The notes under the pieces: generated by a model
Seen by the model: the letters and a program-made list of their open reading frames with translations, nothing else
Database searches by the model: none
What the model was told of the DNA's origin: nothing
DNA from: Heterobasidion occidentale
Taxonomy: Eukaryota > Basidiomycota > Agaricomycetes > Russulales > Bondarzewiaceae
DNA length: 64,000 nucleotides
Direction of reading: 5' to 3'
Assembly: GCA_039111635.1 (NCBI GenBank)
Contig: JBCAQO010000006.1
Span: 248,001 to 312,000, forward strand
Program-made: the position numbers and the translations under genes
In this document: one piece after another, positions 3,054 to 37,542 of the stretch
Layout: each line of letters begins with the position of its first letter
Position numbering within the stretch: position 1 is the stretch's first letter

Positions 3054-4131
3054 TGATATGCTAGAGGTGGCTCTAAGTGCCGAGCACAACACCAAAACAA
3101 CCTCTAGAGGAAGGGGTGCTGGAGCTAGTATCTGATACACAAGGAATTGTTAGTGATGACTTTATAAATTGATGGCGCACTGAGAAGCAGAGGGGAGTGT
3201 GAGATTGTAGCGCCCAAACAGTTTTGGGACTGCGCCAAACACCAACCAAACATTTGGTCGGTCGTGTCGGAGATTTGGTCGGTAACAAGAAGATAGTGTC
3301 GCGACCGACAGCTACGTGCTTCGAGAGCCACATGGGACTCTGACAATATACAAGGGAGGACGAGGGGTATGAACGAAGAGACAAGTACAAATACAAACGA
3401 GGCCGAACAACGAGGATGACAAGTTTTCGGGAGTCAACAAAGACAATTTCAATGGTTGAGACGAGTGCAAATGAGCTCTGAACTGTGGGGTGTGAAAGCT
3501 GGTTTATTTCAGAGTCGTATGTAGGTTTTTATAGTAAACTGAGCCCCTAAGTAAAATATCAAACGAGAAATGAGAGCAAATGTTAAATGGGCGCCAAGCC
3601 CTAGCAAGCAGAGAAGATAAGAAGGTAGGTGAGATGTCCATATGGGTTCCAAAGGTGATAAGGTACAAGTTAATCAGCGATGGCAAACTCCCGACCATTT
3701 GGTATCTGTCGCCTGAGCGAAGGTAGCAGGAACAGGCGTTTGAGAACCAATTAGAATAAAGAAGAAGTAACGTACAAACAGGGTGGCCAAGTAATGGTGC
3801 AAGATCGTGTTTGACTGACCATGTGGAAGTCGGGAAGATAAGCAATAAGGACCAACCGACTCATGGAGCACATTGGCCAACACGGACTACTGGCTCCGAT
3901 CTCGTAAACACCTATCGTAACCCTCCTGTGCGGTCATGGTAAGTACGTGAGGTGTGGGCAAACTGACCCAAGTGCTGCCGAACGTCCTTTGGTGGGTTGC
4001 GGCCGGTTGGGTGGGGACTGACCGTGTTCGGTAATAGTCGGTGTCTTCAGTACTTGTCTAGCACTGTTCAGTATCTCTCCAAAGCTTCCCAAATACCTCC
4101 CTCGGACCCTAGTGTGGGTGCATGCTCATCA
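3054..4131 (+). mobile_element. Solo LTR (family S), old copy with CpG decay
   Basis: This is a 1078-bp sequence starting TGATATG and ending CTCATCA, so it has the TG...CA ends typical of an LTR. It is collinear with the insertion at 23250-24320. Flanking four-base sites are ATGG (3050-3053) and ACGG (4132-4135), a target duplication with one C-to-T difference. Many positions that are CG in the 23 kb copy are TG or CA here, for example around 3208-3300. This is as expected from deamination of methylated CpG. There are no internal coding domains, so I call it a solo LTR left by recombination. Confidence 0.75.
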
Positions 4132-4389
4132 ACGGCGTGCACTGTGGAACAACCTACCATGCGGGAATGGCTGACCGGTGAGGAGGTTGTCTACTAGTCT
4201 AGTAGACAATGGACTTCAAGAAAAGTAGACCGTGCACTTGTGCACTTCTAGACGTCTGAGACATGTAGACTTTGGAACCGTGGGACACCGGAGGTACTGG
4301 CTTCTCCGGAGGGCCAAACAGTACCAAATCAATGTCCGGACTCACTAATTTGTTGTCAAATCTGTAGCAGGTGCTATATATATACTCTT

Positions 4390-5466: not shown

Positions 5467-6094
5467 TGTTATGAACTGCTCGTTTGGTAACCCAAGAGTA
5501 ACAGGTTCTTCCCTAGGTCGCACAACGGACTGAGGGGTGGACAAAGTCTCGACTGTATCAGGCAATAACACAAGAGGGAATAATGATTCCACTGTAGAAA
5601 GACAGTGGGGAACAAAGGTGTTCATATAGGAAGATACAAACTAACAAGGGTTGCAGTAGGAAGACTGCTACTGAACAAAGGAGAATAGACTGAAGATCTT
5701 CAGCCTATTCTATGGGCCTATACACTGTATAGGGTATAGGGTAAGAGTCCATATGCTTCTCCGGATATCCATCCCAGGAGAGCTGTGGTCGCCGTCTCTC
5801 TCAGCCGGTGCCTACTCTTGTACTTCTCCAGTTGCACCAATCCATCCTGGTGCGACGAGGTGCTTACCCATAAGCCCTAAGCCCATGGCATGTGAATGCC
5901 TATCTTATCAATCCTACATCTATGACCCTGTCGTATACCCTCTACTGATGTCTTGAAGAACCATCGGTCCAGTCAGCTCCTAAGAACATGCCGAATACCT
6001 TAATGTACGCTCCGTAGTAGAGCCGCCTAGCATGTGATGCTTGAACCATCGGATAGACCAGCCCCGACGGGCTCCGATTGGTCAAGTCATAACA
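5467..6094 (-). repeat. Element 1, 3' LTR
   Basis: This 628-bp LTR is homologous to 15737-16396. It starts TGTTATGA on the plus strand and ends TCATAACA. It lacks about 30 bp present in the other LTR. On the element's sense strand it follows the purine tract at 6095-6105. Confidence 0.88.
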
Positions 6095-6105: not shown

Positions 6106-8740
6106 CTAGGTCCCAACTCCTGAGGGGACTACTCGCCTCCGTGAGCCTCATCATCTTTCTATCAGCAATTTGTTTCTTGACCCATAAGACCAGATACAAC
6201 TTCTGGTGTGACTTCGTTTTCTGGGGCGAAGACCGACTTACGTCATTTACAATGCCTAGGAGTTGTCCGTCTCCATTGAGCTGTTTGGTTTAGGTACCTA
6301 GCAATATCGCCACAATATTGCGTCACCCTTCCGATGTTCTTCCTTCACCGGTATGGTTTTGTTGCGAGTATGCTCCTAGAGTCAATAGGCAGCTGCTCGA
6401 ACCAGGCCTCTCCTGGTACTGTTTGTTAAGCCAGTTTTCCGCTCTGGCGACGAAGCAGAAAGGTGTTGTGCAAATGACTATCTGATGAAATAGAAACTCG
6501 TCTGTGGATGGGTGTGTGTCGTTCTTCTTTAGAATGCCGAAGGCCATGCTTCAGTGTTTCCAGGATAGATCTTTATCTCCGTGATCTCCGGTATCGAGGG
6601 GGACTCCAGGTGTGTGGGTTGATCGCTTTACTAAGACTTAGGCCCACCAACCTATCAAGAATAGACGGTTCTTGACTTGTCTTGAGTCCGGCAAGACCCC
6701 TTTGAAGATCCCTAACTCTGTCAGCCCCATACGGTGGCCCGTCCTGGTTAGAGATTGGTGTTCGTCCAGAGTTTGTTTGTCACATGGGAGCGAGCATGCA
6801 GCCACGCTCCGCGTATTGAACACGAGGTAAGGATTTTGAAGAATAGATTTTGAACCCCATGGTTTCTTGAGTAAAACATGGTATCCACCTTGACGGTAAT
6901 TATTTGGGGTCAGCGTAAGGTATGTCCTGGTAGTTTAACGTCGTGCCGGACGTCCGTAGTTTTGCGTCTTTGCGGACGTCCTCTAGTTTATCCTTAAGTC
7001 TTTGCGGACTGAGGCTAGTTTATACATAAGTCATTGCGGACTGCCCTGCTAGTTTACGCCAAGGTCGTTGTGGACCTATCCATCTTCCGACGTAGGAGTA
7101 CCTGTAAACAAGATGGAAGACCTTTTCTGCGTGCCGGAACATTCATCGGTGATGCGCATAGAGCCCTAGACCAAGTACAGCCATCTTGACAGGGTTCCTA
7201 CCGAGGCAAGATGGTGACGGTTTATACTATATCAAACCGGATAACTTATAGAGTTGCCAGAATAGACATTGGAGCCTATTTTGACACAACTCACATGGCC
7301 CTGTAATTGAAGGGCAGCTCAGTTTATCGTCATGAAGGACGGCAACTAGTTTATAGTCATTGTGGACGTCCACTATTGCCTGGCTTGAACCTCCCGAGCC
7401 TCGATAGATTTAATCCTCCGGGATGAGGGTAGTTTAAGGTCATTTCAGACTAGTTGGTGGCTAAGGTTGTAGCCATCAACCACATCTCCTATGCGTGAAG
7501 GAGTAAATAGTTTATCGTCATTGCGGACTATTGCAGCTGGAAGCGGTAGTTCTAGCTCCAATATGACTTCCCTAGAACCGAGGGACAATAGTTTATCGTC
7601 ATTGTGGACTAGATCAACATTGTGGCTTCAACAACGATGTCAATTGACATCTCCTATGCTGAAAGGAGTGGTAGTTTAACGTCTTTGCGGATATTGGCCC
7701 TGTAAAGGAAAGGGCAATCCCAGTTTACCGTCATGGAGGACGTCCTAAACCTGAGGCACGATCCCAGTTGCCTCTTGACTGGCCCTTGAAGCAGAATCCT
7801 TGCTTCAGACTTTAAGGGTAGAGTGGGCGCACCATGGAGTAGTCGTGGTCCTGTCGGATGGCTGACAACCCGCTCCATGTCCCCAAACCCCTCGCACGGA
7901 AATGAACTGTGTCGACCCCATATTCTTTTACTGTAAGGCGTATGGAATATGGAAGCACCTTGACCTAGTCAGCAGGGTTCTGCAATGGTGGAGGCCCTCC
8001 CTTCCACCATCTGCCAGAATACAACCATGCTCCGATGGTCCTTGGTAGCTTTAACGTCGTTCCGGACAGTAACTAGTTTATAGTCATTGCAGACTAAGCC
8101 TTTCGTAGTTTTACACCGTTGCGGATGTAATTTGTCCTATTTGGTTACTTAGTGGAGTGCGGCCACTAGTCACCGGCATCACAGATAGGGCCCCCTAATG
8201 CGGAAACAACCCTGTAAAACTGGAGATCCAAAGTGGGACGTCCAAGACACCTGTCAGACCTTGACAGCAAGGTAGGGTCCACCGTTCCCCAACGGTGAAC
8301 ATGCAACACAATTTCCCACCAATATTCTTGCATCATCATAGCCTCTCAGTCGCACCACATGATCGAGGGGCCGGCATATCAGTACCAGTTATTTGTTGAA
8401 TCCAAGGACCTCCTAATGTGGAAAGGGTCCTGTAAAACTGGGGATCCAAGCGGGACACCTGATTCGCTTGTCAGAATACCTCTTGACAACGAGAGTGTGA
8501 GACGCTTGTCCTTCCAGACCGGAGGGTTGAAACGCGCATGGCCAGGTACTTTCCCTGCCTTCTTATCTTTTCACAGTTTAACGTCATGCAGGATGTTCTT
8601 TGGTGTCCTGTGCGTGAAACCGGTACCTGTGGTGCGGAGGGTCCTTTCCTCTCCGTCACCTTCTGAGACAAGGGGTTCCTTAACTCCCTTGTCTAATATC
8701 CTCCGCCGATGTCCCCAAAATCTCTGTATCCCTCGTTGGG
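6106..8740 (-). other. Element 1 long 3' untranslated region
   Basis: About 2.6 kb lie between the third ORF and the 3' LTR with no credible protein coding. They are collinear with 28444-30860 of element 2. The part nearest the LTR (6106-6930) has no repeated motif. The part from 6931 to 8594 holds the motif and hairpin array described separately. Confidence 0.8.
6931..8594 (-). repeat. Element 1 array of about 16 short motifs alternating with hairpins
   Basis: On the sense (minus) strand the motif is close to TCCGCAATGACGATAAACTA. Plus-strand start positions of the copies are 6931, 6957, 6984, 7016, 7050, 7320, 7347, 7430, 7508, 7589, 7672, 7721, 8046, 8074, 8106 and 8574. The best-conserved parts are the GTCCGC end and TAAACTA. 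Between copies lie short inverted repeats, for example 7453-7462 with 7471-7480. The same order of motifs and hairpins occurs in element 2, so the array is a structural part of this retrotransposon family. Function is unknown. Confidence 0.85.
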
Positions 8741-15736: not shown

Positions 15737-16396
15737 TGTTATAAACTGCTCGTTTGATACCCAAGAGTAACAGGTTCTTCCCTAGGTTGCACGATGGACT
15801 GAGTGGTGGACGAGGTTTCGACTGTATCGGACAATGATACAGAATAATGATGATTCTACTGTAGGAAGACACTAGGGAACAAAGGTTCTGTATGTGAAGA
15901 TACAGAAAGAACAAGGTGTTCGTGTAGGAAGGCACAACAGAACAAGGGTAGCAGTAGGAAGACTGCCACTGAATGAAGGAGAATAGACTGACGATCCTCA
16001 GCCTATTCTATGGGCCTTATATACTGTATAGGGTTTAGGGTAAGAGTCCGTATGCTTCTCCGGGTATCCATCCCAGGAGAGCTGTGGTCGCCGTCTCTCT
16101 CAGCCGGTGCCTACTCTTGTACTTCTCCAGTCACACCAATCCATCCTGGTGCGACGAGGTGCTTACTCATAAGCCCTAAGCCTATGGCATGTGAATGCCT
16201 GTCTTATCAATCTGCTGTACCCATGACCCTTCCCATATATCCTCTACCGATGTCTTGAAGAACCATTGGTTCAGTCAGATCATAAGGACATGCCGAATAC
16301 CTTGGTGTACGCTCCGTAGTGGAGCCGCCTAGCATGTGATGCTTGAACCATTGGATAGACCAGCCCCAACGGGCTCTAATTAGTCAAGTCATAACA
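15737..16396 (-). repeat. Element 1, 5' LTR
   Basis: This 660-bp LTR begins TGTTATAA on the plus strand (one G-to-A change from the family end) and ends CATAACA. The promoter box TATATAAG is read on the minus strand near 16017-16024. It is homologous to both LTRs of element 2 but clearly diverged. Confidence 0.85.
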
Positions 16397-19738: not shown

Positions 19739-20358
19739 TGTTATGACTTGACCGATCGGGGCCCTTCACGGCCGGTCTAACCGATGGATCAAGCATCACA
19801 TGCTAGGCGGCTCCACTACGGAGCGTACACCAAGGTATTCGGCATGTCCTTAGGAGCCGACAAGACCGATGGTTCTTCAAGACATCGGTAGAGGCTATAT
19901 GAGGGGACATGAGGCTCATAGAGTTCACACAGTAATAAGAGAGGCATTCACATGCCATGGGCTTAGGGCTTATGGGTAAGCACCTCGTCGCACCATGATG
20001 GATCAGTGCGACTAGAGAAGTACAAGAGTAGGCGCCGGATGAGAGAGACGGCGGCCACAGCTCTCCTAGGATGGAAACCTGGAGAAGCACACGGACTCTT
20101 ACCCTATACCCCATACAGTATATAAGGCCCATAGAATAGGCTGAGGATCTTCAGTCTATTCTCTTTCGTTCATTCGTATCTTCGAATACGAAGCTCTTTG
20201 TTCCCCTGTATCCACACATACAGGATTCTTAGAGTCAATCATTACTCCCTCCTGTATCAACGCCTGATACAGTCGAGACTCCGTCCACCACTCAGTCCAT
20301 TGTGCGACCTAGGGAAGAACCTGTTACTCTTGGGTTATTGAACGAGCCGTTCATAACA
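19739..20358 (+). repeat. Element 2, 5' LTR
   Basis: This 620-bp LTR runs from TGTTATGA to TCATAACA. It contains the box TATATAAG (20119-20126) and, about 32 nt below TATAAG, the predicted transcript start AGTCTATTCT (20153-20162), which divides it into U3 and R-U5. Confidence 0.93.
20119..20162 (+). promoter_or_regulatory. Element 2 LTR promoter and self-primer
   Basis: TATATAAG is followed after 26 bases by AGTCTATTCT. If transcription starts there, the first ten nucleotides are exactly complementary to AGAATAGACT just after the 5' LTR. The start position is inferred from spacing and complementarity, not measured. Confidence 0.6.
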
Positions 20359-20828: not shown

Positions 20829-21989
20829 ATGTCAAACCCTACAGACCCCCCCGTCTCGTCGGGAAGGGGCAAGATCAAGCTCCCCGATAACTTCGAAGGG
20901 GACCGAACACAATCACAGAAATTCATCATGAATTGCCTCCTCCTTTTCACAGCAGAAACCAGACCGATACAAGACGGATTCCGACAAAGTCTCTCTCGCT
21001 CTCTCGTGCATGAGATACGGGACGGCCGGCGTATGGGCAGAGAGCTTCCTAAAGAAGACAGTAGGGCGACCCCACCCAAGACCGTAGGAACTTGGGACGA
21101 CTTCCTTGTCAGGTTTAAACTCCAGTTCAAGGAAACGAACCTCACGGACAAGGCCCGAAGCGCCCTCATGTCTTTCTCTCAGGGGAAGATGACGGTGGAT
21201 GAATATTCAAACCAATTCATCCTTATCGCCGCCGACGCCGACATCACCGACAGGGAACAAGTCCCTTATTTCCAGAGAGGGCTTGACCCGAGGGTCATGG
21301 ACAAGATCTATGACAAGGAAACTCCGCCGAAGGACACGATCCAAGATTGGGTCAACACTGCCTGTGAAATAGATGGACGCTTGAGAGCCCGAAGTGCTCA
21401 AAAGGCGATCCTCGCCAACTCCACCTCATTCCGAAGCGACTTCCTCAACCGCTTTCACCTCCAACCCGCTCGTCGTTATAACTCTACCACCGCTCCTCGA
21501 AGAATGAACAACCAGGTGGTTGACATGGATATTGATACCTCCCGCAAAAGAGACGCCAGTCGGAACAAGCGTGTATACGATGGCAAGAGACCTGCTCCCT
21601 TTTCCTGCTACAATTGCGGAAGACCAGGGCATGGGATAGCTGACTGTCGTTCCCTCGTAGAGGCGTTCCCCCGTCTCGAGGAAATCCGCGCAAGCCGATG
21701 GGTGGAGGAGGTAGACGAACTCGCGCTGCAGACATGGAGGATGAAGACGAGCAAGAATCCCCGGTGGGAAACGATGCGCGACTACATCGAGGATTGGAGG
21801 AGGGGAGTTCTCATGGCCACCACCGTCGGGTACCACAACCTGGTAATTCGGTGGAACGTGAGGACCCTCCCGCGAAAAGGGGAGGATCACGCCAGAGCGA
21901 TGGAGAGCGCTACGTACCGCCTAACGGACGACGAAGCAACGGACCCATCAGTGATATTAATGGCGTCCGAGCGCTCTTCCAAGGAGTAG
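20829..21989 (+). CDS. gag: Element 2 gag-like ORF with CCHC zinc knuckle
   Basis: This 386-codon frame includes LPDNFEGDRTQSQKF, the capsid-like MSFSQGKMTVDEYSNQF, the knuckle CYNCGRPGHGIADC and a C-terminal EEVDELALQTW region. Coding probably starts further upstream, because the acidic stretch at about 20640-20828 is in frame and matches element 1. Between about 20954 and 21065 the frame differs from element 1: an extra base is later compensated, so roughly 37 residues have replaced the conserved RYKMDEDKVSLALSCMRYG-type segment. The ORF looks open but is probably impaired. Gag forms the virus-like particle and packages RNA. Confidence 0.75.
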   Translation: MSNPTDPPVSSGRGKIKLPDNFEGDRTQSQKFIMNCLLLFTAETRPIQDGFRQSLSRSLVHEIRDGRRMGRELPKEDSRATPPKTVGTWDDFLVRFKLQFKETNLTDKARSALMSFSQGKMTVDEYSNQFILIAADADITDREQVPYFQRGLDPRVMDKIYDKETPPKDTIQDWVNTACEIDGRLRARSAQKAILANSTSFRSDFLNRFHLQPARRYNSTTAPRRMNNQVVDMDIDTSRKRDASRNKRVYDGKRPAPFSCYNCGRPGHGIADCRSLVEAFPRLEEIRASRWVEEVDELALQTWRMKTSKNPRWETMRDYIEDWRRGVLMATTVGYHNLVIRWNVRTLPRKGEDHARAMESATYRLTDDEATDPSVILMASERSSKE

Positions 21990-22149: not shown

Positions 22150-25100
22150 CTTGACGTGCGATTAACAACTCGAGGAAGAAGCGCTGGAGCCAGAGCCGCC
22201 ATCGACTCAGCATGTGAAGGGATTTTGGTAAATGAGGGGTGGTACAGAAGCACAACCTTCCCACTTATCCTTTAAACCGCCCCATCCGCGAACGCAACGT
22301 CGATGACACCATCAACAAGGCAGGCCTCATTCGACGAGGCCTAGACGCGAATCTCACCGTCAAGGATAGACGGGGGAGAACTCACACTGAACGCGTCCAA
22401 ATGTTTATCACCAATCTAGGGAAAGACGATATGCTCCTAGGAACGGATTGGCTGAAATACCACGACCCCTCCATCGGGTGGAGGCACCGTGAGGTACACT
22501 TTGATCGTTGCCCCAGAGATTGCCAACAACCATATGGATTGACCAAGGCAAGGGAAGAGCCTACCAAGAAGGCATGGCTAGCAAAACTACGCGGTGACAA
22601 GGTTCCTCAGCGGACGAAACCGCATCTTGTCTCAGAACCGGTAGGACCTTCGTGGACGTGGACTAAAGAACAATGGAGCCAAGTACCCACGAAGGAATGG
22701 AAAATTCGGTTCATGGAAATACTCGAGCACAAATCCCGACAACGCAAAGCTCGGGAATGGCTCGAAGAACAAGTGGCCGAAAGGAAGGAACGCCGGCAAG
22801 CTTCAGCAAAAGTCACTGAAGAAGCGCAAACGCCGTCTGACTCCTCCGCAATGGATAGCGCAGGAGAACCCGTCATTAGGAAGGTAGCCCCAGAACCCTC
22901 GGGGTTCGCAAGCTTTGACGAAGACCTGGAGGAAGAAATCGACACCACCGACTTGAAAGGTCGGGTGCCGACAGAATATCATTCTTACCTCGACATCTTC
23001 AGCGAACGACGATCGCAGAGGCTTCCCCAACATACAGTATGGGACCACGCGATAAACCTCAAACCGTCTTTTGTACCCCAGGCCCCGCGGATATTTCCCT
23101 TGAGCCCGGAAAAGCATGACGAGCTAGGGAGATTCGTCAAAGAGCACCTTTCCAGAGGAACAATACGTCGGTCAACAGCACATAGCGCGGCCTCTTTCTT
23201 TTTCGTAAGCAAGAAAGATGGGAAGCTCCGTCCGGTACAAGACTATCGCTGATACGCTAGAGGTGGCTCTAAGTGCTGAGCACAACACTAAAACAACCTC
23301 TAATGCAGGGGTGCTGGAGCTAGTATCTAATACACAAGGAATTGTTAGTGATGACTTTAGAAATTGAAGGTGTACTGAGAAGCAACGGGTGTGAGATTAT
23401 AGCGCCCGAACGGTTTCGGGACTGCACCGAACACCGACCGAACGTTCGGTCGGTCGTGTCGGGGATTCGGTCGGTAACGAGAAGGTAGTGTCACGACCGA
23501 CAACTACGTGCTTCAAGAGCCACACGGGACTCTGACAATATACGAGGGAGGACGGGGGGGTACGAGCGAAGAGACGAGTACGAACGCGAATGAGGCCGAA
23601 CGACGAGGATGACAAGTTTTCGGAAGTCGACGAAGACGATTTCGATGGTTGCGACGAGTGCGGATGAGCTCTGAACTGTGGGGTGCGAAGGCTGGTTTAT
23701 TCCAGAGTTGTATGTAGGTTTTATAGTAAACAGAGCCCCTAAGTAAAATATTAAACAAGAAATGAGAGTAGATGTCGAATGGGCGCCAAGCCTTAGCGAT
23801 CAGAGAAGATAAGAAGGTAGGTGAGATGTCCATATGGGTTCCGAAGGTGACAAGGTAAAAGTTAATCAGCGATGGCGAAATCCGAACGTTCGGGATCCGT
23901 CGCCCGAGCGTAGGTAGCCGGACAGGCCTTGGAGAACCAATTAAAATTAAGAAGAGGTATCGTACGACCAGGTGGCCAAGTAATGGTACAAAATCGCGTT
24001 TGACCGACCATGTGGAGGTCGGGAAGATAAGCGATAAGGACCGACCGACTCACGGAGCACATCGGCCGACACGGAAGACTGGCTCCGATCTCGTAAACAC
24101 CTATCGTAACACCCCTGTGTGGTCATGGTAAGTACGTGAAGTGTGGGCGAACTGACCCAAGTGCTGCCGAACGTCCTTTGGAGGGTTGCGGTCGGTCGGG
24201 TGGGGACCGACCGTGTTCGGTGCAAGTCGGCATCTTCGGTACTTGTCTAACGCTGTTCGGTATCTCCCCAAAGCTTCCCGAATACCTCCCTCGGACCCTA
24301 GCGCGGGTACATGCTCATCATCGCCACCTTAACGAACATACTATTCGAGACGTCACCCCCCTGCCATTAATCCAAGAACTATTGGATATTATTAAAGGCG
24401 CAACGGTGTTCTCAAAGCTCGATGTTCGGGGGATATAACAACGTGCGCATCAAGAAGGAGACGAGTCCAAGGCGGCCTTCGTCACACCCTTGGGACTTTT
24501 CGAGCCAACGGTGATGTTCTTTGGGCTCTGTAACTCCCCAGGAACCTTCCAAGCCATGATGAACATGATCTTCCAAGAACTCATCCTGGCCCGAAGATAG
24601 CGGTATATATGGACGACATCCTCATCTTCACGAAGACCACAGCGGAACACATTGTGATTCTTCGGCGAGTCCTCCAAATCCTGCGCGACAACGATCTCTA
24701 CCTCAAACCAGAGAAGTGCAAGTTCCACAAGGAAAAGTTTGAACTACCTTGGATACACGATCTCAAAGGACCACGTCGCTATGGAAGACTCAAAGATTGA
24801 AGCTATCCAGGAATGGCCCATTCCACGCACAGTTCGCGACATTCACTCCTTCTTAGGCTTAGGGAACTTCTACCGACGATTCATTGATAAATTCTCTTTG
24901 ATCGCTCGGCCCCTGCATGACCTCACGAAGAAGGATGTGAAATGGGACTGGACCACGGAGTGCCAACAGGCGTTTGATCGACTGAAGAAAACCTTCACCA
25001 GCCGACCCGTCCTGTTGTACCCTGACCCGATGCGCCCTTACCGACTTGTTACCGACGCTTCCCTCGCAGCATATGGTGCAGTCCTCTTACAGGAAGGACC

Positions 25101-27021
25101 TGATAATGACTGGCACCCTGTTGCATACCTCTCAGGATCGTTCTCACCGGCCGAACGAAATTACGACGTGCATGATCGCGAACTCCTCGCCATCATCAAA
25201 GCATTGGAACACTGGAAGCACTACCTCGAAGGTGCTCGACATCCCTTTGAGGTCTGGACGCCAATAAAAACTTAGAACACTTTAAGACGTCTCGCGACCT
25301 GTCAAGGCGTCAAGCGCGCTGGAGTCTGTTTTTGTCCCGATTTGACTTCCAGCTCAGTTACAAGGCTGGAACTACTAATCATGCCGATGCTCTGTCCAGG
25401 CGTCCAGACCTTAGTGAGGGGGTGGAATCTGATAACAAAGCACAGACTCTACTCCCGTCCAGATTTTTCACCGAGTCCAGCGAAACTCTAGTAGAGCCAA
25501 GCGAAGGCATACACGTCAAAGCAACAGAACTCGTATCCTCGGACATCCTCTCACTTATTCGACACTCGCGCTCGGAACACGATTTGCTGGTTGATGTCGC
25601 CCTCAAGAAATTACTGGAAAAGGTCCAAATGCAATGAAGGGCGACCTAGGAAAATGGACACATGAAGAGGGCATCACAAGACGCGACGGTTACATATGCG
25701 TCCCAAAGGACGATCTCCTTCGACGAATGATTGTCAAAACGCACCATGACACTATGGCTACAGGACACCCATGGCGAGCTTAGACCTTAGAATTGGTCCA
25801 ACGCCATTACTGGTGGTCAAGCATGACCAAATTTGTACACGCATATGTGGATGGATGTGCAAATCTGCCAATCTACCAAGAACCTTCCCCATAGGACCCA
25901 TCCACCGATCCAACCGCTGGAAACCACAAACGTCCCTTGGCGCTTTATCTCCACCGACTTCGTGACAGACCTCCCGGAAAGCAGAGGCTACGACTCGATC
26001 AACGTGGTAGTCGATCAGGGTCTGTCAAAAGGAATAGTCATAACCCGTGCAAAAAGACAATCACGGCCGAAGAAACCACGACGCTCTTCCAGGACAATGT
26101 GTTCAAACGATATGGTTTTACCAACCAAAGTGGTGTCCTACAGAGGTCCTCAATTTGCGGCAAAATTCACAGGGAACTATGGAAAGGAATGGGAATCACC
26201 CCTGCCCTCAGCACGGCTTACCACCCCCAAACGGACGGAGAAACAGAACGGGTAAATCAAGAGATCGAGCAATTCCTGCGAGTTTTCTGCAACTACCATC
26301 AAGATAACTGGGTAGACTTGATCCCCTTCGCAGATTCTACCACAACACCCGAAGACACTCCACCACTGGGAAGTCGCCGTTTGAAGTCCTTTATGGGTTC
26401 AATCCACCATATTCGGTCGACTCAGCTCTGGAGACCAAGGTGCCCGCAGTAACTGAACGTTTGCGGCTAATCAAAGAAGTCCAAGAAGATGCGGCCGCAA
26501 GTCTACAAATAGCAGCGCAGCACGCCAAGGACCGGGACCTACACAGGAAACTTCCGCAGTGGGAAGTAGGAACCCAAGTTGGTTAGAAGGAACCCATATT
26601 CGGACGACTCATCCGAAGTTCAAGCTGGCACCTAGGCGCTATGGCCCTTTTAAGTGATTGAAAGAATCGGTCCTCTGGCTTATCGGTTGGAAATACCCGA
26701 AACATGGAGGATACACCCGGTGTTTCATGCCTCCATACTCACGGAATACGAGACAGAGGCCACGGAAGGAACTTCCCCAGACCTGCCCCAGAGATCCTGA
26801 ATGAAGAAGAGCACTACGAAGTGGAGGCCATTCTAGATTCAAGACACCAGGGACGAGGGACCAAGTACCTTGTCAAGTTGGTCGGATATTCTGAGGCCGA
26901 TAACACTTGGGAACCCTTTACCCTCCTCAAAGATACGGCCGACGAGGCGCTTCGTGAATTCCACGAAAGCTACCCAGACAAGCCCCGACCGGCGGCGATT
27001 AGGCTTTTAGAAAGATATAAA
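22150..27021 (+). pseudogene. pol: Element 2 pol: protease to chromodomain, multiple breaks
   Basis: The protease-like IDSACEG (about 22203) is followed by a frameshift near 22240. The frame then continues to 23252 (ISKKDGKLRPVQ-type start of RT), where a solo LTR is inserted. RT resumes at 24321 (HLNEHTIRDVTPLPLI). It is broken near 24433, 24450 and 24597, with MDDILIF of the catalytic loop still visible. RNase H is at 24739-25275, integrase fragments ([27 protein letters not shown]) at 25780-26450, and a full chromodomain (KYLVKLVGYSEADNTWEP) at about 26840-27000. The frame then runs on without a stop into ORF3. Confidence 0.88.
23250..24320 (+). mobile_element. Solo LTR (family S) inside element 2 reverse transcriptase
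   Basis: This 1071-bp insertion starts TGATACG and ends CTCATCA. It is flanked by TCGC on both sides (23246-23249 and 24321-24324). Removing it rejoins the RT codons Asp-Tyr-Arg-His-Leu. It is collinear with the old copy at 3054-4131 but is rich in intact CpG sites, so it is younger. Confidence 0.9.
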
Positions 27022-27066
27022 AAGGAGATACCCCCCCTCTTTCAAAGCAAGAATCCTCCCCAGTAC

Positions 27067-28443
27067 ATGTCCGACCGCTCCTCCCTTGATTACTCCCCTG
27101 GACGTGCCATGCTCATCGATGACGGGACTACCTCCTCCCCTTCAAGAAACCCCTCACCAGACATCATTCTGGCCGTGGCCAACCCCGACACTGGACGCCC
27201 TAGCCGAAGCAGCCGCCCAACGACTCCAGAAGGAGTTCCTGTACAAATCAGTGTCCACCAAACCGCGCTCACCGTCGAAGGTCGAACGGGTTCCCGAGCC
27301 TCACCACGGTTTGAGAGAGCTCATGACGAGCACGATGAAGGACGTCAGGCAGAAGGAAGGCATGCTCCGTCAACGCCTCCGCGACCGACGTCAACATTGG
27401 CTCAAGGAGACGCGAGGCAGGAAACGAGAGGCGGAAGAAGACCAGGAAACCCTTCGGATCTGGCATCGCCTACAACTGTTGAGGCAGGTGTACAAGAACC
27501 AGCAACGGCTGGTACATCAACTACCAGGACCAGAGGGCCCCCTACCAGTAGTCGAGATCTGCACCCCGGAGAGTTGGAAGGACTAGGAGACGCCCTACTC
27601 CAGCGCACCACCATCTCCGCGGTAATTCAGATGGCCACAGCGCTGGCCTTACAAAGGCTCGCTAACTTCTTCGCAGGGCAACCAGGAAGCGAGAGCAGCG
27701 ACATACCCCGACGCCTCGCTGACGCGAGCGACCAGGTCAGGCTTCTGGCCTATGCAGATGATCATAGGGCCGCCTCCTGGTACGCCCGAGGAAATACTGC
27801 TGCTTACGCCCAACTCCTTCATCCGGACGAGTTTCTCCTCCTTCATCAATCTGGAGCTCCTACCCGCCCTCATCTCGCGCACCGACACAGGACATTCAAG
27901 TCACGCCCATCCCGTTCGGACTGACCCATTCCGCGTCCAACCATGGAGCGAAGCTAGCAGAGCGGTACCGGCTACAAGCAGTCGAGACGCATCCACCCAG
28001 ACCGAATATGTCTGGGCTACGGTCCAACGACAGGCACGAAGGGACCGAGAGGCCCTTCCTCCCGTATCGGCAGGACAATCCACCGGGCAGGACGCAGGAG
28101 GCAGCAATGAGGAGCACCCTCCAAGGTACAGGAGGAATGAGGGACGAGGGAGCCAGAGAACAAGGGCAACCCTTCAGCCCAGGCGAAGCAGTCCTAGAAG
28201 AACTCGACCAAGAGATTCGCCGACTCCAAACCGTCCTCGAGATAATCGAGCTGAAGGAGCACATCCGCACATTGGTAGAAGAACTCCAATCCGCCAGCGC
28301 CGACTCAGCGAACTACTTCCTGGACTCGAGCGGAACTAGACGCCTGGGACGAGGTCGAAGGCGATAACTACGACGACGCCGACCCCTACTACAGACCAGA
28401 CGAAGGGTACGGAGATTATGGAGACATTGGCGGAGGATACTAA
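27067..28443 (+). pseudogene. Element 2 ORF3, frame-disrupted
   Basis: It begins MSDRSSLDYSPGRAML and follows element 1 ORF3 throughout, ending at TAA 28441-28443 after a Tyr/Asp/Gly-rich tail. At least one indel near 27840-27930 switches frames. The overlapping frame encodes LRELMTSTMKDV...QRLVHQLPGPEG (27086-27586) and a C-terminal coiled coil LEELDQEIRRLQTVLEIIEL (about 28197-28256), both well conserved with element 1. Function is unknown. Confidence 0.65.
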
Positions 28444-28544
28444 ACCAGGGAGTTGAGGAACCCCTGGTTTTAACATGATGACGGAGAGGAAAGGACCCTC
28501 CGCATCACAGGTACCGGTTTCACGCACAGGACGCCGGAACGAAC

Positions 28545-30073
28545 GTCCTGCATGACGTTAAACTGTGAAAAGATAAGAAGGCAGGGAAGTACCTGACCAT
28601 TTCGCGTTGCAGCCCTCCGGTCTCAAGATGAAGGACAAGCATTCAACACTCTCGTTGTCAAGAGGTATTCTGACAAGCGAATCGGGCGTCCCGCTTGGAT
28701 CCCCAGTTTTACAGGGCCCTTTCCGCATTAGGAGGCCCTTAGGATTCACAACATAACCGACTGGTACATGAATGATGCATGAATATTGGTGGGAAATCGT
28801 GTTGCATACCCACCGTTGGGGAACGGTGGACCAACCTCGCTGTCAAGGTCTGACAGGTGTCTTGGACGTCCCACTTTGGATCTCCAGTTTTACAGGGTCT
28901 TTTCCGCATTAGGGGACCCTATCAGCGATGCAGGAACTGATGGCCGCACTCCATTAGTACCCAAAACGGAGAAAAACATCCGCAACGATGTAAAACTACG
29001 AAAGGCTTGGTCCGCAATGACGATAAACTAGTTACCGTCCGGAACGACGCTAAAGCTACCAAGACCCTCGGAGCGTGGTTGTATTCTGGCAGACGGTGGA
29101 AGTGAGGGCCTCCACCGTTGCAGAACCCTGCCGACTAGGTCGAGGCGCTTCCATATTCCATACGCCCTACAGTAAAAGAATATGGGGTCGACACGGTTCA
29201 ATTCCGTGCGAGGGGTTTGGGGACATAGAGCGGGTTGTCAGTCTTTCGACGACAAAGACCACAACTACTCCATGGTGCGCCCATTCTACCCTTGAAGTCC
29301 GAAGCAAGGATTCCGCTTCAAGGGCCAGTCAAGAGGCAACTGGGATCGTGCCTCGTGTTTGCTTTCATCCGCAACGATGTAAAACTACGAGCGTCCGCAA
29401 AGACGTTAAACTACTACTCCTTTCAGCATAGGAGATGTCGATCGACATCGTTGTTGACGCCACGATGTTGATCTAGTCCGCAATGACGATAAACTATTTA
29501 CTCCTTCAAGTATAGGAGACGTGGTTGATGGTCACGACCTTGACCATCAACTAGTCCGAAATGACCTTAAACTACCCTCACCCCGGAGGATTAAATCTAT
29601 CGAGGCTCGGGAGGTTCAAGCCAGGCGATAGCGGACGTCCGCAATGACTATAAACTAGTTGCCGTCCTTCATGACGATAAACTGAGCTGCCCTTCCGTTT
29701 ACAGGGCCATGTGAGTTGTGTCAAAATAGGCTTCCAGTCTATTCTCGCAACTCTATAAGTTATCCGGTTTGATATAGTATAAACCGTCACCATCCTTCCT
29801 CAATGGGAACCCTGTCAAGATGGCTGTACTTGGTCTAGGGCCCTATGTGCATCACCGATGAATGTTCCGGCGCACAGAAATGGTCTACCATTTTGTTTAC
29901 AGGTACTCCTACGTTGGAAAATGGATAGGTCCGCAATGACCTTGGCATAAACTAGCAGGGCAGTCCGCAACGACTTCTGTATAAACTAGCCTCAGTCCGC
30001 GACGACTTAAGGATAAACTAGCCGACGTCCGCAAAGACGCAAAACTACGGACGTCCGGCACGACGTTAAACTA
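28545..30073 (+). repeat. Element 2 array of about 15 short motifs alternating with hairpins
   Basis: The motif, close to TCCGCAATGACGATAAACTA, starts at 28545, 28978, 29010, 29037, 29367, 29393, 29476, 29554, 29637, 29664, 29929, 29963, 29995, 30027 and 30053. Between copies are perfect short inverted repeats: 29093-29100 with 29111-29118; 29151-29158 with 29178-29185; 29333-29338 with 29349-29354; 29524-29533 with 29542-29551; and 29765-29770 with 29781-29786. Similar ones lie just outside the array (28443-28450 with 28462-28469; 30123-30130 with 30140-30147). Three motif copies near 29929-30020 carry the same 5-nt insertion before TAAACTA. Confidence 0.88.
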
Positions 30074-30860
30074 CCAGGACATACCTTACGCTGACCCCAC
30101 ATAACTACCGTCAAGGTGGATACCATGGTCTATTCAAGAGACCATGGGGTTCAAAATCTATTCTTCAAAGTCCTTACCTCGTGTCCAATACCTTTAGTGA
30201 AAAACAAACTCTGGACGAACACTCAATCTCTAACCTGACAAGAAGTTAGGGATCTTCAAAGGGGTCTTGCCGGACTCAAGACAAGTCAAGAAAAATGTTC
30301 GTTCTTGATAGGTTGGTGGGCCTAAGCCTTAGTAAAGCGATCAACCCACACACCTGGAGTCCCCCTCGATACCGGAGATCAGGGAGATGAAGATCTATCC
30401 TGGAAACACTGAGACATGGCCTTCGGCACTTTGGAAGAAGAACGACACACACCCATCCACAGACGAGTTTCTATTTCATCCTATAATCATTCGCACAACA
30501 CCTTTCTGCATCGTCGCCAGATGACACTGGCTTATCAAACCTACCAGGGAGCCCTGGTCGAGTAGCTGCCTATTGACTCTAGGAGTGTACTCACACAAAA
30601 CGTGCGGTGAAGGAAGAACACCGGGAGAAGGGACAGGGTAATGTGGCTATGCCCCGAACTTCAAATCAAACAGCTCAACGGAGAAGGAAAACTCCTAGGC
30701 GTTGTAAACGACGTAGGTCGGTCTTCGCCCCAGAAAACGAAGTGATATTGGGAAGACGCATCCCAATCTATTTTTGACGACCACAAAGCAATTGTCCGTG
30801 GAATGACGATGAAGCTCGTTTCTGCTCAAGCGAGTAGTCCCCTCAGGAGTTGGGACCTAG

Positions 30861-30871
30861 AAAGGGGGTAA
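30861..30871 (+). promoter_or_regulatory. Element 2 polypurine tract
   Basis: AAAGGGGGTAA directly precedes the 3' LTR at 30872. It is identical to the tract of element 1. Confidence 0.85.
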
Positions 30872-31492
30872 TGTTATGACTTGACCGATCGGGGCCCTTC
30901 ACGGCCGGTCTAACCGATGGATCAAGCATCACATGCTAGGCGGCTCCACTACGGAGCGTACACCAAGGTATTCGGCATGTCCTTAGGAGCCGACAAGACC
31001 GATGGTTCTTCAAGACATCGGTAGAGGCTATATGAGAGGGACATGAGGCTCATAGAGTTCACACAGTAATAAGAGAGGCATTCACATGCCATGGGCTTAG
31101 GGCTTATGGGTAAGCACCTCGTCGCACCATGATGGATCAGTGCGACTAGAGAAGTACAAGAGTAGGCGCCGGATGAGAGAGACGGCGGCCACAGCTCTCC
31201 TAGGATGGAAACCTGGAGAAGCACACGGACTCTTACCCTATACCCCATACAGTATATAAGGCCCATAGAATAGGCTGAGGATCTTCAGTCTATTCTCTTT
31301 CGTTCATTCGTATCTTCGAATACGAAGCTCTTTGTTCCCCTGTATCCACACATACAGGATTCTTAGAGTCAATCATTACTCCCTCCTGTATCAACGCCTG
31401 ATACAGTCGAGACTCCGTCCACCACTCAGTCCATTGTGCGACCTAGGGAAGAACCTGTTACTCTTGGGTTATTGAACGAGCCGTTCATAACA
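30872..31492 (+). repeat. Element 2, 3' LTR
   Basis: This 621-bp LTR is identical by eye to the 5' LTR except for one extra base (ATGAGAGGGACATG against ATGAGGGGACATG). It is followed by the target duplication GATGG. Confidence 0.94.
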
Positions 31493-33592: not shown

Positions 33593-33658
33593 ATAGACAT
33601 TTGTCTCCTGTTTTTTTTTTGCAAATAAAAATACATGTGACATTGATTTTCTGCCCGT

Positions 33659-34105
33659 TGATGAGCATGCACCCGCTCTGGGGTCCGGGGAAGGTATTTG
33701 GGAAGCTTTGGGGAGAAGCCGACCAGCTCTAGACGCATACCGAAGACACCGACTATTACCGAACATGGTTGGTCCCTACCCGACCGACCGCAAGCCACCA
33801 AAAGACGTTTGGCAGCACTTGGGTCAGTTCGCCCACACTTCACGTACTTACCATGACCGCACAGGAGTGTTACGATAGGTGTTTACGAGATTGGAGCCAG
33901 TAGTCTATTTCGGCCGATGTGCTCCGTGAGTTGGTCGGTCCTTATTGCTTATCTTCCCAACTTCTGCATGGTCGGTCAAACACAATCTTGCACCATTACT
34001 TGGCCATCCTGGTCGTATGTTACTATTTCCTTATTTTCATTGGCTCTCCAACGCCTATTCCTGCTACCTACGCTCAGACGATGAATACCGAATGTTTGGG
34101 ATTTT
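33659..34105 (-). mobile_element. Truncated solo LTR (family S), reverse orientation
   Basis: The reverse complement matches the 3' part of the family-S LTR. It starts at the outer end TGATGAGCATG and loses similarity near 34105, so about 600 bp of the LTR are missing. Several CpG sites are decayed. It lies between the two genes of the CACTA/Tnp2-like element. Confidence 0.7.
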
Positions 34106-34199
34106 GTATTTAGTTGTATTAATGAATAGATGGGACCCTCACGTTTTTGTGAGAGTCCACTGCAAACTCAAGTAGCCTGTGCGACAGGCTATTTTAACA

Positions 34200-34783: not shown

Positions 34784-36769
34784 ATGGACAACCACCTGTA
34801 TTCCAGAAGTCCCAAACCTTCGCAGTCTCAAGACTCTTCTTCTTTAAGCTCTGTTCATCTCCGTTTGCATTCTTTTGACGATGTTTCTACTGAACAAGCA
34901 TGTCTTTTCATACCTGCTAGCTTCCAGCAGCAAAGCACGGCGCACCAGACTTCTCTAGCGTTTTCTCCACCCGCTTCCCAGCTCCCTTTCTTTGCTCTGC
35001 CTGCCCCATCTCTCCACTCTGCAAGTCCGGCATCAGGAGTCTTTGGGCTTCCAAGTCGAAGCTCGTCGGTGGATTCAGCGCGTTATGATGCTGCCAGGTT
35101 CCGTGTGAAGTCTTTGTTGTCATGTGTTCTGCCGCATACTGATGGAGGCCGCTCCATGTAGCCAAGTCCTTCATCATCTACAAGTTCTCAAATAGATAGG
35201 TTAGCATCGCGTATACTCCGCGACGCAAGTCATCTTTCCCTACTTCAGAGTGGGAATGTGCAGTACAGCCACCTCCACCATGAGTGTCAGAGCCTCAGGC
35301 AGCAAGTAGAAAATTTGACGACAGAAAACCGAACACTCAGGTGAGTTCATGTGTCTTGCTTAATCGATTCTTGTATCGGATCCTGGTTCTTTTAATAGAT
35401 TCGCATACACTGAACTTGCACGGAGCGTAACCTCAACATTGTCCACCCCCGCTCTCTTGAATGACAGTGATATTGAAATTATCGAGCCTGTACCGGATAG
35501 CGATGAGGCGATCAACTTCGCGTCCTTCTCTCAACCTCCCCTGAAGCCACTCGCACGCGTAGACTACCCTAAGGTCACGTACTGGCACAAGCATGAGTGG
35601 ATGTCCGCTTCTAAGGCCATGAAAGCAGATGCTGACGATCCGAACAAGAAGAAAGGGCCGCAAACTAACAGAAACACGACGATGATGTACGTCGAAGACA
35701 AGGACGGCAATTGCATCGACGGGCACAGAGCAAGGGAGATACGCGCTGTGGTAACACAGTTCTGGCTTTGGCTGAAGAAGGTGAATCAATTGCCAAGGAT
35801 GTGGACACAACTGGACCTCAAGCTATCGGACTTGTATCGACTCGAAATGGCCTACCAATTTCCTGAGCTGCAGCTCTGCAAAGACGGATGGAAGGCTGAC
35901 ATGATCGCGATGCACTCATACTCCCAATGGTATGGAAGATCTGTTGTACAAGGCCCCCGTCGAGTCAAGAAAGAGGCCCCCAACCAGGATATGCTTGTCG
36001 CTCAACTCACTTTGGCCAAACGACAAAATGAAGATCCCGATAGGCTTTCGAGCGAGCCCCCCAAAAAACCGAGGCTTGATCCACCCCAGCAGAGCACAGT
36101 TGCCGCCAAGGATGGCAGAATTCTCGCTCCGGACAACGAGGCCGCCCGTGCTCCAGATGGCAAGGCTATTGCTACGGATGGCGACAGCATCGGTCTGGAT
36201 GTTGGTGCTACCGCTATGGATGGCGGGGGCATCACTTTGGGTGCTGAGACGGCCACAACGAGTGTTGGGGGCATCGCTGAGGATGCTGAGAATGCTGCCC
36301 AGGGTGACGAGGGTTCCGCTCAGCCCGACACGATCGCCAATGTATCATCAGCTGACAGCGTCTTGCCAGCATCCCCCACATCACAGCCGCGTGGATCCCA
36401 ACCAGTTCCTCCAAGACCAAGAATTGTAACAAAGGTCCGCGTCATGTATCGTGGAATCCCCGTTCGCAAGAATTCACTCATATCGATCATCTAGCCAATG
36501 AACCCGCTGTACGTATTCCTGATGTTCCATTGTCTTGTCATTCTAATCATATCTCCGTCGTGCTTTTGTAGATCAAAACTTTTCCAAGGCACTCCTACCA
36601 GGCCCCTGCCAACACTCGACATCAACGGCCTCGGCCCTTCCGGTGCTGCCCCCGCTGCCAACATATCTAACGCGCTATCTATGACACGTGACGCCGCAAC
36701 TAACGAATCGACGCCCATGTTCACAAGTCCCACTGGCAGTGCTGACGCCGCTACAGATGCAGCAGCGGC

Positions 36770-36829
<60 letters not shown>

Positions 36830-37542
36830 AGCACTAGCTGCCGCAGCCGCAGCACCAGCAGCAGCAACACTAGCAGCCGTTGCACCAGCAGCCGTTGCAC
36901 CAGCCGCACTAGCCATCACCACCGCAGCAGCAACAACAGCAACAGCAACAACAGCACCAGCAGCAGCACAAGCAGCAGCAGCACCAGCGCCAGCAGCGCC
37001 AGCAGCGCCAGCAGCGCCAGCAGCGCCAGCAGCGCCAGCAGCGCCAGCAGCGCCAGCAGCGCCAGCAGCGCCAGCAGCGCCAGCAGCGCCAGCAGCGCCA
37101 GCAGCGCCAGCAGCGCCAGCAGCGCCAGCAGCGCCAGCAGCGCCAGCAGCGCCAGCAGCGCCAGCAGCGCCAGCAGCGCCAGCAGCGCCAGCAGCGCCAG
37201 CAGCGCCAGCAGCGCCAGCAGCGCCAGCAGCGCCAGCAGCGCCAGCTGCCTCAGGTGATGTCGTTGAATTTGATTCCTTTTATCACACAGTACTAAATTC
37301 TTACTATGCTCAGCTTCAAGCGCTTCTTCATCAAAGGCTCCTAGCCGGAAAAAGGGCGTTGGTAATGGTGTGTTGCGCATAGGGAAGCAACTTGTCGCAA
37401 GGTACGAAGTTCTCCAACTATGAGAGATTACACTGAGCAGTGCTGCCACCTACAAACTAATGTATCACACAGGAATATATGTGCACGGCAATGGAAAGAA
37501 CAATTTCCGAAAGGAACAACTAACGAATTCAATGTTTACTGA
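34784..37542 (+). CDS. Accessory protein of the CACTA/Tnp2-like element
   Basis: Proposed exons are 34784-35104, 35162-35340, 35399-36446, 36572-37254, 37314-37401 and 37473-37542; the donor at 36447 is uncertain. The protein starts MDNHLYSRSPKP. It is Ser-rich, then has a short coiled coil (QSLRQQVENLTTENRTL), then a conserved block YPKVTYWHKHEW ... YVEDKDGNCIDGHRAREIRA ... WKADMIAMHSYSQW that I recall from transposon-linked proteins of Agaricomycetes. A basic PPKKPRL stretch, degenerate 8-residue Asp-Gly-rich repeats, a long Ala-Ala-Pro tract and a C-terminal NICARQWKEQFPKG segment follow. A TGA at 37540 replaces the Trp seen in the related fragment at 17.1 kb, so the end may be truncated. 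Function is unknown, probably transposition-related. Confidence 0.5.
36987..37244 (+). repeat. Minisatellite, about 29 copies of a perfect 9-bp unit (GCGCCAGCA)
   Basis: The unit encodes Ala-Pro-Ala in the sense frame. Copies are essentially identical at DNA level although many synonymous changes would be allowed. It is preceded by CAA and CAG trinucleotide runs (about 36770-36985). The homogeneity implies recent expansion by slippage or unequal exchange. Confidence 0.9.

Follow-up and report, generated by a model that had tools for sequence, protein, structure and literature searches.

An array of coremin-like RNA motifs in the 3' untranslated region of a fungal Ty3/Gypsy chromovirus family

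The 64,000-nucleotide (nt) stretch of the Heterobasidion occidentale genome analyzed here (the window; contig JBCAQO010000006.1, positions 248,001 to 312,000) holds two insertions of one Ty3/Gypsy chromovirus family, element 2 on the forward strand and element 1 on the reverse strand, both of which carry an array of a short hairpin-forming motif between the last open reading frame (ORF) and the 3' long terminal repeat (LTR). A structural scan, defined by a 3-bp hairpin, a 6-nt loop, and a spacer ending in AAACT or near it, found 15 sense-strand copies in element 2 at 28545-30073 (Table 1), in line with the approximately 15 of an earlier note made from the sequence alone. The usual copy has the form GUC-CGNNAN-GAC-NN-UAAACUA, that is, a hairpin (hp1) followed by a fixed spacer, and the motif core with up to three mismatches gives 12 matches in the window, six on the plus strand in element 2 and six on the minus strand in element 1, compared with 0.01 expected in shuffles. 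In the case of element 1, the same structural scan produced 19 lines, of which five were excluded as chance to leave 14 copies, and a looser score tolerating one broken pair gave 16. The earlier note had reported about 16 copies in the same order as in element 2; the order, compared by eye, is largely shared, with some gains and losses.

The genome searched was the window's own 45.05-Mb assembly, and all element copies described here come from that one genome. When up to two mismatches are allowed, the core pattern has 957 + 917 matches, compared with none for the reversed control, and exact matches number 834 for the main form and 433 for a second form, in which the loop is C-U-N-C-A-U and the spacer ends in ACUG; the junction of polypurine tract and 3' LTR has 270 matches at up to three mismatches. 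All 20 fetched loci carry arrays of 9 to 20 copies oriented as the element, these loci being a biased choice made by exact motif match. Six further loci were chosen by their 3' LTR junction and were off the first exact-motif list, and here four have 11 to 15 copies, one (a truncated element) has two, and one has none, once a chance line that recurs in every one of them, together with a single antisense line, had been excluded by reading the output. Absence of the motif from other full-length copies, which the earlier note had said would count against its view of the array, is therefore not what is seen, as the motif is present in 20 of the 20 and in five of the six loci. Three motif copies at G000:C2:976790-976858 lie exactly 24 nt apart, and such 24-nt-spaced copies show that arrays have grown by tandem duplication.

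With the looser score, the arrays of 22 element copies contain 334 sense and 13 antisense matches in 38.6 kb. Upstream of the arrays there are 29 sense and six antisense matches in 134 kb, the sense ones being mostly recurring weak matches in coding sequence, and downstream there are one sense and four antisense in 38 kb. A DNA-level role, for example as a chromatin or transcription-factor site, would suit a short conserved DNA repeat in an element that encodes a chromodomain, but the strand bias of 334 to 13, together with the hairpin compensation described below, points to RNA and makes such a role most improbable. The array probably acts as RNA, as the earlier note had supposed.

Across 26 aligned arrays, the motif has a non-CpG diversity of 0.032 and the remaining array sequence one of 0.108, a gap that exceeds the one given by every circular shift of the motif mask. 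Regular 21-nt copies have values of 0.00-0.03 over the UAAACUA spacer at positions 15-21, and of 0.098 at the next base, position 22. The comparison with ORF3, the reading frame next to the array, could be made for 19 of the 22 copies (three were skipped, and the codon frame was taken from element 1), giving non-CpG diversity of 0.028 in the motif, 0.118 in the rest of the array, and 0.163, 0.081, and 0.179 at ORF3 codon positions 1, 2, and 3, so that the motif is three to four times less diverse than the array around it and more constrained than ORF3 second codon positions (0.028 versus 0.081). CpG sites in the 26 arrays are more diverse in the motif and in the rest of the array alike, as would be expected if they decay once an element has inserted; such decay explains some of the one-sided hp1 changes considered below. 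The motif is under purifying selection, and the family maintains the array.

Covariation within the motif is found both in hp1 and between loop and spacer. A variant in which both partners of an hp1 pair differ, GCC/GGC with loop CUCCAU and spacer GUUAAACUG, is found at 73 places in the genome. With that loop and spacer, neither of the one-sided forms is present (0 and 0), and the unchanged GUC/GAC is among the genome matches listed; GCC/GGC is a compensatory change of one hp1 pair. Another hp1 form, AUC/GAU, accounts for 25 of the 334 loose copies, and a fourth pair outside hp1 is possible in 238 of them compared with a mean of 158 in shuffles, kinship among copies being left in this figure. 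The second base of the loop and the last base of the spacer change together, with G/A in 252, U/G in 56, A/A in 21, U/A in four, and G/G in one of the 334 loose copies, and with 834 G/A, 433 U/G, 15 U/A, and no G/G among exact patterns in the genome. In the viral contigs of IMG/VR, the corresponding stretches number 68 for G/A (57 distinct contexts), six for U/G, none for U/A, and one for G/G, the reversed control giving one. This independent recurrence of the loop-spacer covariation, in contigs that appear to be of phages, is the strongest sign that the array motif and that of these contigs are one RNA fold, and we found no mention of it in the portion of PMC10520033 available to us. The array might also be a satellite-like repeat, acquired a single time and since left to functionless drift, and the range of 9 to 20 copies and the tandem duplications at 24 nt lend this possibility some encouragement. 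It is already contradicted, and we give it almost no credence, since the motif diversity of 0.028 compares with 0.118 elsewhere in the array and with 0.179 at ORF3 third positions, and the hp1 change is compensatory without one-sided forms. The neutral decay that the earlier note had named as fatal to its view is thus at odds with both conservation and covariation, and its statement that the family maintains the array holds.

The motif has a close counterpart in coremin, whose original form was given as GUCCGAAGACGUUAAACUAC, comprising the hairpin hp1, a spacer, and then a second hairpin (hp2) of no fixed sequence (PMC10520033). In the frame of the coremin of beet necrotic yellow vein virus (BNYVV), the exonuclease Xrn1 is also stalled by hexaloops of the form YGNNAD, including CGCAAU and CGAAAU (PMC10520033). 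In copy 6 of element 2, hp1 and spacer are identical to the BNYVV frame GUC-loop-GACGUUAAACUAC, and the loop, CGCAAA, fits YGNNAD. As judged from sequence, the array motif is coremin, the Xrn1-resistant RNA (xrRNA_C) known from RNA viruses of plants and fungi, in its hexaloop form. Six of the 15 element 2 copies (3, 6, 7, 8, 9, and 14) combine a loop that follows the published rule with a short spacer. The 3-4 bp expected of a coremin hp1 are found with all three pairs formed in 306 of the 334 loose copies, as well as in 15 of 15 element 2 copies, where pairing was itself part of the search rule. The loop is YGAD or YGNNAD in 144 of the 334 and YGNNAC in 108, and the other 82 belong mainly to the C-U-N-C-A-U class or have A replacing G at loop base 2. 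The coremin spacer GUUAAACUAC lies directly behind hp1, with a diversity of 0.00-0.03 in regular copies, and in 64 of the 334 the fixed part of the spacer is preceded by more than two bases. The exact BNYVV tetraloop form has one match in the host genome, inside an array, and its reversed control also has one. Rfam families, including those of viral exonuclease-resistant RNAs (xrRNAs), gave no match in the window at the gathering cut-off, and at E up to 5 there were two weak matches in 28340-30900, both unrelated (E 2.7 and 4.2).

An hp2-like hairpin of -2.5 kcal/mol or lower starts within 8 nt after 11 of the 15 copies in element 2, compared with a mean of 5.3 in shuffles (p 0.005), and after 11 of the 16 copies in element 1, compared with 6.0 (p 0.02). 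For six closely spaced copies (3, 5, 9, 11, 13, and 14), the best hairpin is hp1 of the next copy. In other elements there is an extra copy related to copy 10, in which one hp2 pair alternates between G-C and A-U. The hairpins that the earlier note had placed between the copies are real, though they do not exceed those at other places in the array, and the best reading is that the motif and the intervening hairpins together make up a single structure.

The coremin-like 21-mer was found in 68 viral-contig stretches (L031-L098), whose contigs appear to be phages, and in 40 stretches of prokaryote genome contigs (L135-L174), the reversed control having been run on the viral contigs only (one match). 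Grouped by record title, the 40 prokaryote stretches include 17 from Lactobacillales, seven from Clostridia, eight from Patescibacteria, and one from a proteobacterium. In five of 60 viral loci scanned (L037, L054, L068, L077, and L081), the 21-mer immediately follows a gene predicted to encode a tRNA or tRNA-like RNA, and in other viral loci it lies, by eye, immediately before a ribosome-binding site. In the Lactobacillus prophage Lj928 (AY459533), the motif (L175:1601-1621) lies within the 55 bases that separate Ljo_1458 from Ljo_1459, in the gene row downstream of the cI repressor gene. A second-class (U/G) copy at L126:6515-6535 of a viral contig is flanked by what look by eye like two tRNA-half-like sequences. 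The array motif has what we take to be a resemblance to the tag region of bacterial transfer-messenger RNA (tmRNA), which was rejected: ARAGORN finds no tmRNA or tRNA-like gene in the window, and in 60 of the 68 viral loci it finds one tmRNA gene (L056, 6634-7007), which excludes the motif at 6188-6208. Such phages and prophages may be mainly those of bacteria that have RNase J, and it is this enzyme that the 21-mer may resist in phages and prokaryotes. No report of coremin in phages was found in the literature, which was searched by title and start of abstract.

We consider it likely that the array consists of about 15 serial coremin-type Xrn1-resistant RNAs in the 3' untranslated region (UTR) of a Ty3 chromovirus, leaving stable 3' fragments, and we infer the stalling of Xrn1 by array copies from published tests of the same motif. 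Two XRN_N loci are present in the host genome, the number to be expected if it encodes both Xrn1 and the nuclear relative of that enzyme. In the mechanism that we propose, element RNA would be decapped or cut, and an Xrn1-type 5'-to-3' exonuclease would degrade the gag-pol-ORF3 part until it stopped one nucleotide before an hp1, the stop position published for BNYVV. A copy that leaks would be backed up by the next, such that fifteen in series could make an imperfect block nearly complete, and stable 3' RNAs of approximately 1-3 kb, nested within one another and containing array and 3' LTR sequence, would be left. What the element might gain is a matter for speculation, the tying up of Xrn1, or a decoy for RNA silencing, or both, being most likely by analogy with viral noncoding RNAs. 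In budding yeast, Xrn1 is required for normal Ty3 retrotransposition and for the shift of Ty3 RNA from polysomes to assembly sites (PMC4589538), and a yeast totivirus is restricted by Xrn1 (PMC5053509), so that Xrn1 is of consequence to elements of this sort in one direction or the other. The dependence of yeast Ty3 on Xrn1 would suit a different use of stalling, in which Xrn1 and P-body factors are held on the element RNA to start particle assembly rather than to make decoy fragments. We give this only a slim chance, as the exonuclease would presumably reach the array only after the upstream part had been destroyed, and intact genomic RNA would not be held. The earlier note had instead proposed a platform for Gag or ORF3 protein in packaging or export of genomic RNA. 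Hairpins of that kind would be expected as many conserved sense-strand copies within one noncoding stretch, which is what is seen, and ORF3 adjoins the array and has relatives in another fungus. A protein-binding site would not, however, predict that the same 21-mer and its loop-spacer covariation match those of apparent phage contigs, and in the RNA viruses of plants and fungi that share the motif, its tested role is Xrn1 stalling (PMC10520033). A Gag or ORF3 site is accordingly an unlikely explanation, somewhat less so than the holding of Xrn1 for assembly, and the motif resembles instead a coremin-type exonuclease-resistant RNA.

Several observations weigh against a row of working coremin barriers. 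Nine of the 15 element 2 copies deviate from the published loop or spacer rule. The loop ends in C in six of the 15, and the C-ending loop CGAAAC lost Xrn1 resistance in the BNYVV frame, while two putative natural mycovirus copies of coremin have C-ending loops (PMC10520033). Two of the 15 belong to the second loop class, for which we found no test in the available part of PMC10520033, and three have a spacer that is five bases longer, two of these also ending in C and one fitting the loop rule. Four of the 15 have no clear hp2, and the excess of hp2 is not significant when compared with other positions of the same array (P 0.18). Downstream hairpins show no excess in the phage and bacterial matches either, being present in 8 of 55 and 6 of 40 compared with means of 11.2 and 9.2 in shuffles, which argues against a simple transfer of the virus model to phages. 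The covariation counts reflect few independent events copied into many elements, and one-sided hp1 forms with other loops do occur among the 334 loose copies (11 AUC/GAC, 10 GUC/GAU, nine GUC/AAC, and two GCC/GAC), some of which fit CpG decay. Finally, RNAalifold on aligned copies recovered the copy's own hp1 in three of 15 windows, a result that carries no support for the fold.

Table 1. Motif copies and element features in the window (hp1, first hairpin; hp2, downstream hairpin)
Feature	Position	Strand	Description
Copy 1	28545..28565	+	second class: loop CUGCAU, spacer end ACUG; hp2-like hairpin not found
Copy 2	28978..28998	+	hp1 AUC/GAU, loop CGCAAC; hp2 weak
Copy 3	29010..29030	+	loop CGCAAU, fits published loop rule; hp1 of next copy as hp2
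Copy 4	29037..29058	+	loop CGGAAC, spacer UAAAGCUA; hp2 weak
Copy 5	29367..29387	+	hp1 AUC/GAU, loop CGCAAC; hp1 of next copy as hp2
Copy 6	29393..29413	+	loop CGCAAA; GUC-CGCAAA-GAC-GUUAAACUAC; hp2 CUCCU/AGGAG (5 bp)
Copy 7	29476..29496	+	loop CGCAAU; hp2 CUCCU/AGGAG
Copy 8	29554..29574	+	loop CGAAAU; hp2 present
Copy 9	29637..29657	+	loop CGCAAU; hp1 of next copy as hp2
Copy 10	29664..29684	+	second class: loop CUUCAU, spacer end ACUG; hp2 GCCCU/AGGGC
Copy 11	29929..29954	+	loop CGCAAU; longer spacer (CUUGGCA preceding UAAACUA)
Copy 12	29963..29988	+	loop CGCAAC; longer spacer
Copy 13	29995..30020	+	loop CGCGAC; longer spacer
Copy 14	30027..30047	+	loop CGCAAA; spacer GCAAAACUA
Copy 15	30053..30073	+	loop CGGCAC; hp2 weak
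Element 2 5' LTR	19739..20358	+	99.84% identical to 30872-31492
Element 2 gag ORF	20829..21989	+	Pfam Retrotrans_gag, 3.4e-11
Element 2 RNase H part of pol	24739..25275	+	Pfam RT_RNaseH_2, 6.8e-38
Element 2 chromodomain ORF	26704..27924	+	Pfam Chromo, 5.5e-12, residues 38-88
Element 2 3' LTR	30872..31492	+	polypurine tract GAAAGGGGG immediately 5'
Element 1 3' LTR	5467..6094	-	LTR comparison
Element 1 array	6930..8620	-	14 copies; 16 by looser scan
Element 1 ORF3, 443 aa	8741..10072	-	upstream of element 1 array; no Pfam match
Element 1 5' LTR	15737..16396	-	LTR comparison

The assignment of the elements to the Ty3/Gypsy chromoviruses is based on Pfam matches to gag, a Ty3-type RNase H, and a chromodomain; the zinc knuckle of element 2 gag is slightly below the Pfam cut-off. 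Two more pieces of pol (22239-23252 and 25937-26452), neither of which spans the whole reverse transcriptase or integrase core, gave no Pfam family, and the chromodomain frame of element 2 continues across the ORF3 region. The target-site duplication GATGG flanks element 2 on either side and, with the near identity of its LTRs, marks it as a young insertion. The LTRs of element 1 are 84.6% alike and a matching target-site duplication is absent, so that it is, to judge by these features, an older or recombinant insertion. The earlier note was right to treat the two as separate, diverged insertions (99.8% and a duplication versus 84.6% and none). For ORF3 of element 1, eight relatives were found, five of them Heterobasidion irregulare proteins that are 31-41% identical over 62-97% of the length and the remaining three 43-48% identical, and many genome copies of ORF3 have no stop within the matched part. 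When the Heterobasidion ORF3 of greatest distance served as query against the window's own genome, the main rows contained only members at similar identity (32-47%) and no second ORF3 family was singled out, and no ORF3-bearing element was confirmed in viral contigs. The pol region of element 2 has an insert of approximately 1.07 kb (window 23250-24323) that is absent from element 1 and is probably a separate mobile element, with relatives at 3054-4134 and 33655-34106 and inside element loci L104 and L106. A dense repeat array with 9-15 bp spacing lies within an ORF at window 36730-37249.

The array suggests that RNA fragments resistant to decay are produced by retrotransposons in addition to viruses. 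If so, exonuclease-resistant RNA is not confined to RNA viruses and is relied upon by a chromosomal retrotransposon, and the encounter of retrotransposons with the host RNA-decay machinery becomes testable. It would also predict a class of stable 3' retrotransposon RNA that ordinary annotation has overlooked, and one genome would offer hundreds of natural variants for working out the coremin fold, the structure of which was still unsolved in 2023 (PMC10520033). A broader view, on which we are evenly divided, is that coremin is a general, ancient or repeatedly invented anti-5'-to-3'-exonuclease device of RNA viruses, DNA phages or prophages, and LTR retrotransposons, that the 15-fold barrier of the fungal chromovirus makes RNAs like subgenomic flaviviral RNAs (sfRNAs), and that a tertiary contact joining loop base 2 to the final base of the spacer has fixed the two loop classes. 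In the literature searched by title and start of abstract, with bioRxiv and most subscription journals outside it, no paper was found to describe xrRNAs in an LTR retrotransposon (one R2 engineering paper uses the word xrRNA), in agreement with the earlier note, which knew of no such feature described for Ty3/Gypsy elements. To our knowledge it would be the largest such array. We therefore see in it an RNA device that is already known, here in a carrier of a new kind, unusually numerous, and with an extra loop class.

The closest comparator is the hexaloop coremin of umbraviruses, enamoviruses, hypoviruses, and chrysoviruses, which has in common with the array the hp1 GUC/GAC, the hexaloop CGCAAU or CGAAAU of some copies, the spacer end UAAACUA, a putative hp2 without fixed sequence, and a location on the sense strand, often in the 3' UTR (PMC10520033). 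The array has 9-20 copies per element, whereas the available text of PMC10520033 mentions a second motif in one virus, CjTLV. It differs from viral coremin also in its carrier, which is an LTR retrotransposon within a cellular genome, and in having the extra loop class (C-U-N-C-A-U with ACUG) and some spacers that are five bases longer. In the case of BNYVV RNA3, coremin has the same hp1 and spacer as the array, though its loop is the tetraloop CGAA rather than a hexaloop; it stalls Xrn1 in yeast, where RNA3 with coremin yields ncRNA3 via Xrn1 and RNA3 with coremin flipped yields none, and the coremin-bearing RNA also represses Xrn1 in vitro (PMC5869530). Flavivirus xrRNAs, which often occur in tandem, and the xrRNA_LT of tombusviruses are likewise exonuclease barriers near the RNA 3' end. 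They adopt larger pseudoknotted folds (PMC10520033). Finally, Ty3/Gypsy chromoviruses share gag, RNase H, chromodomain, LTRs, and polypurine tract with this element, which adds ORF3 and the putative xrRNA array before the 3' LTR.

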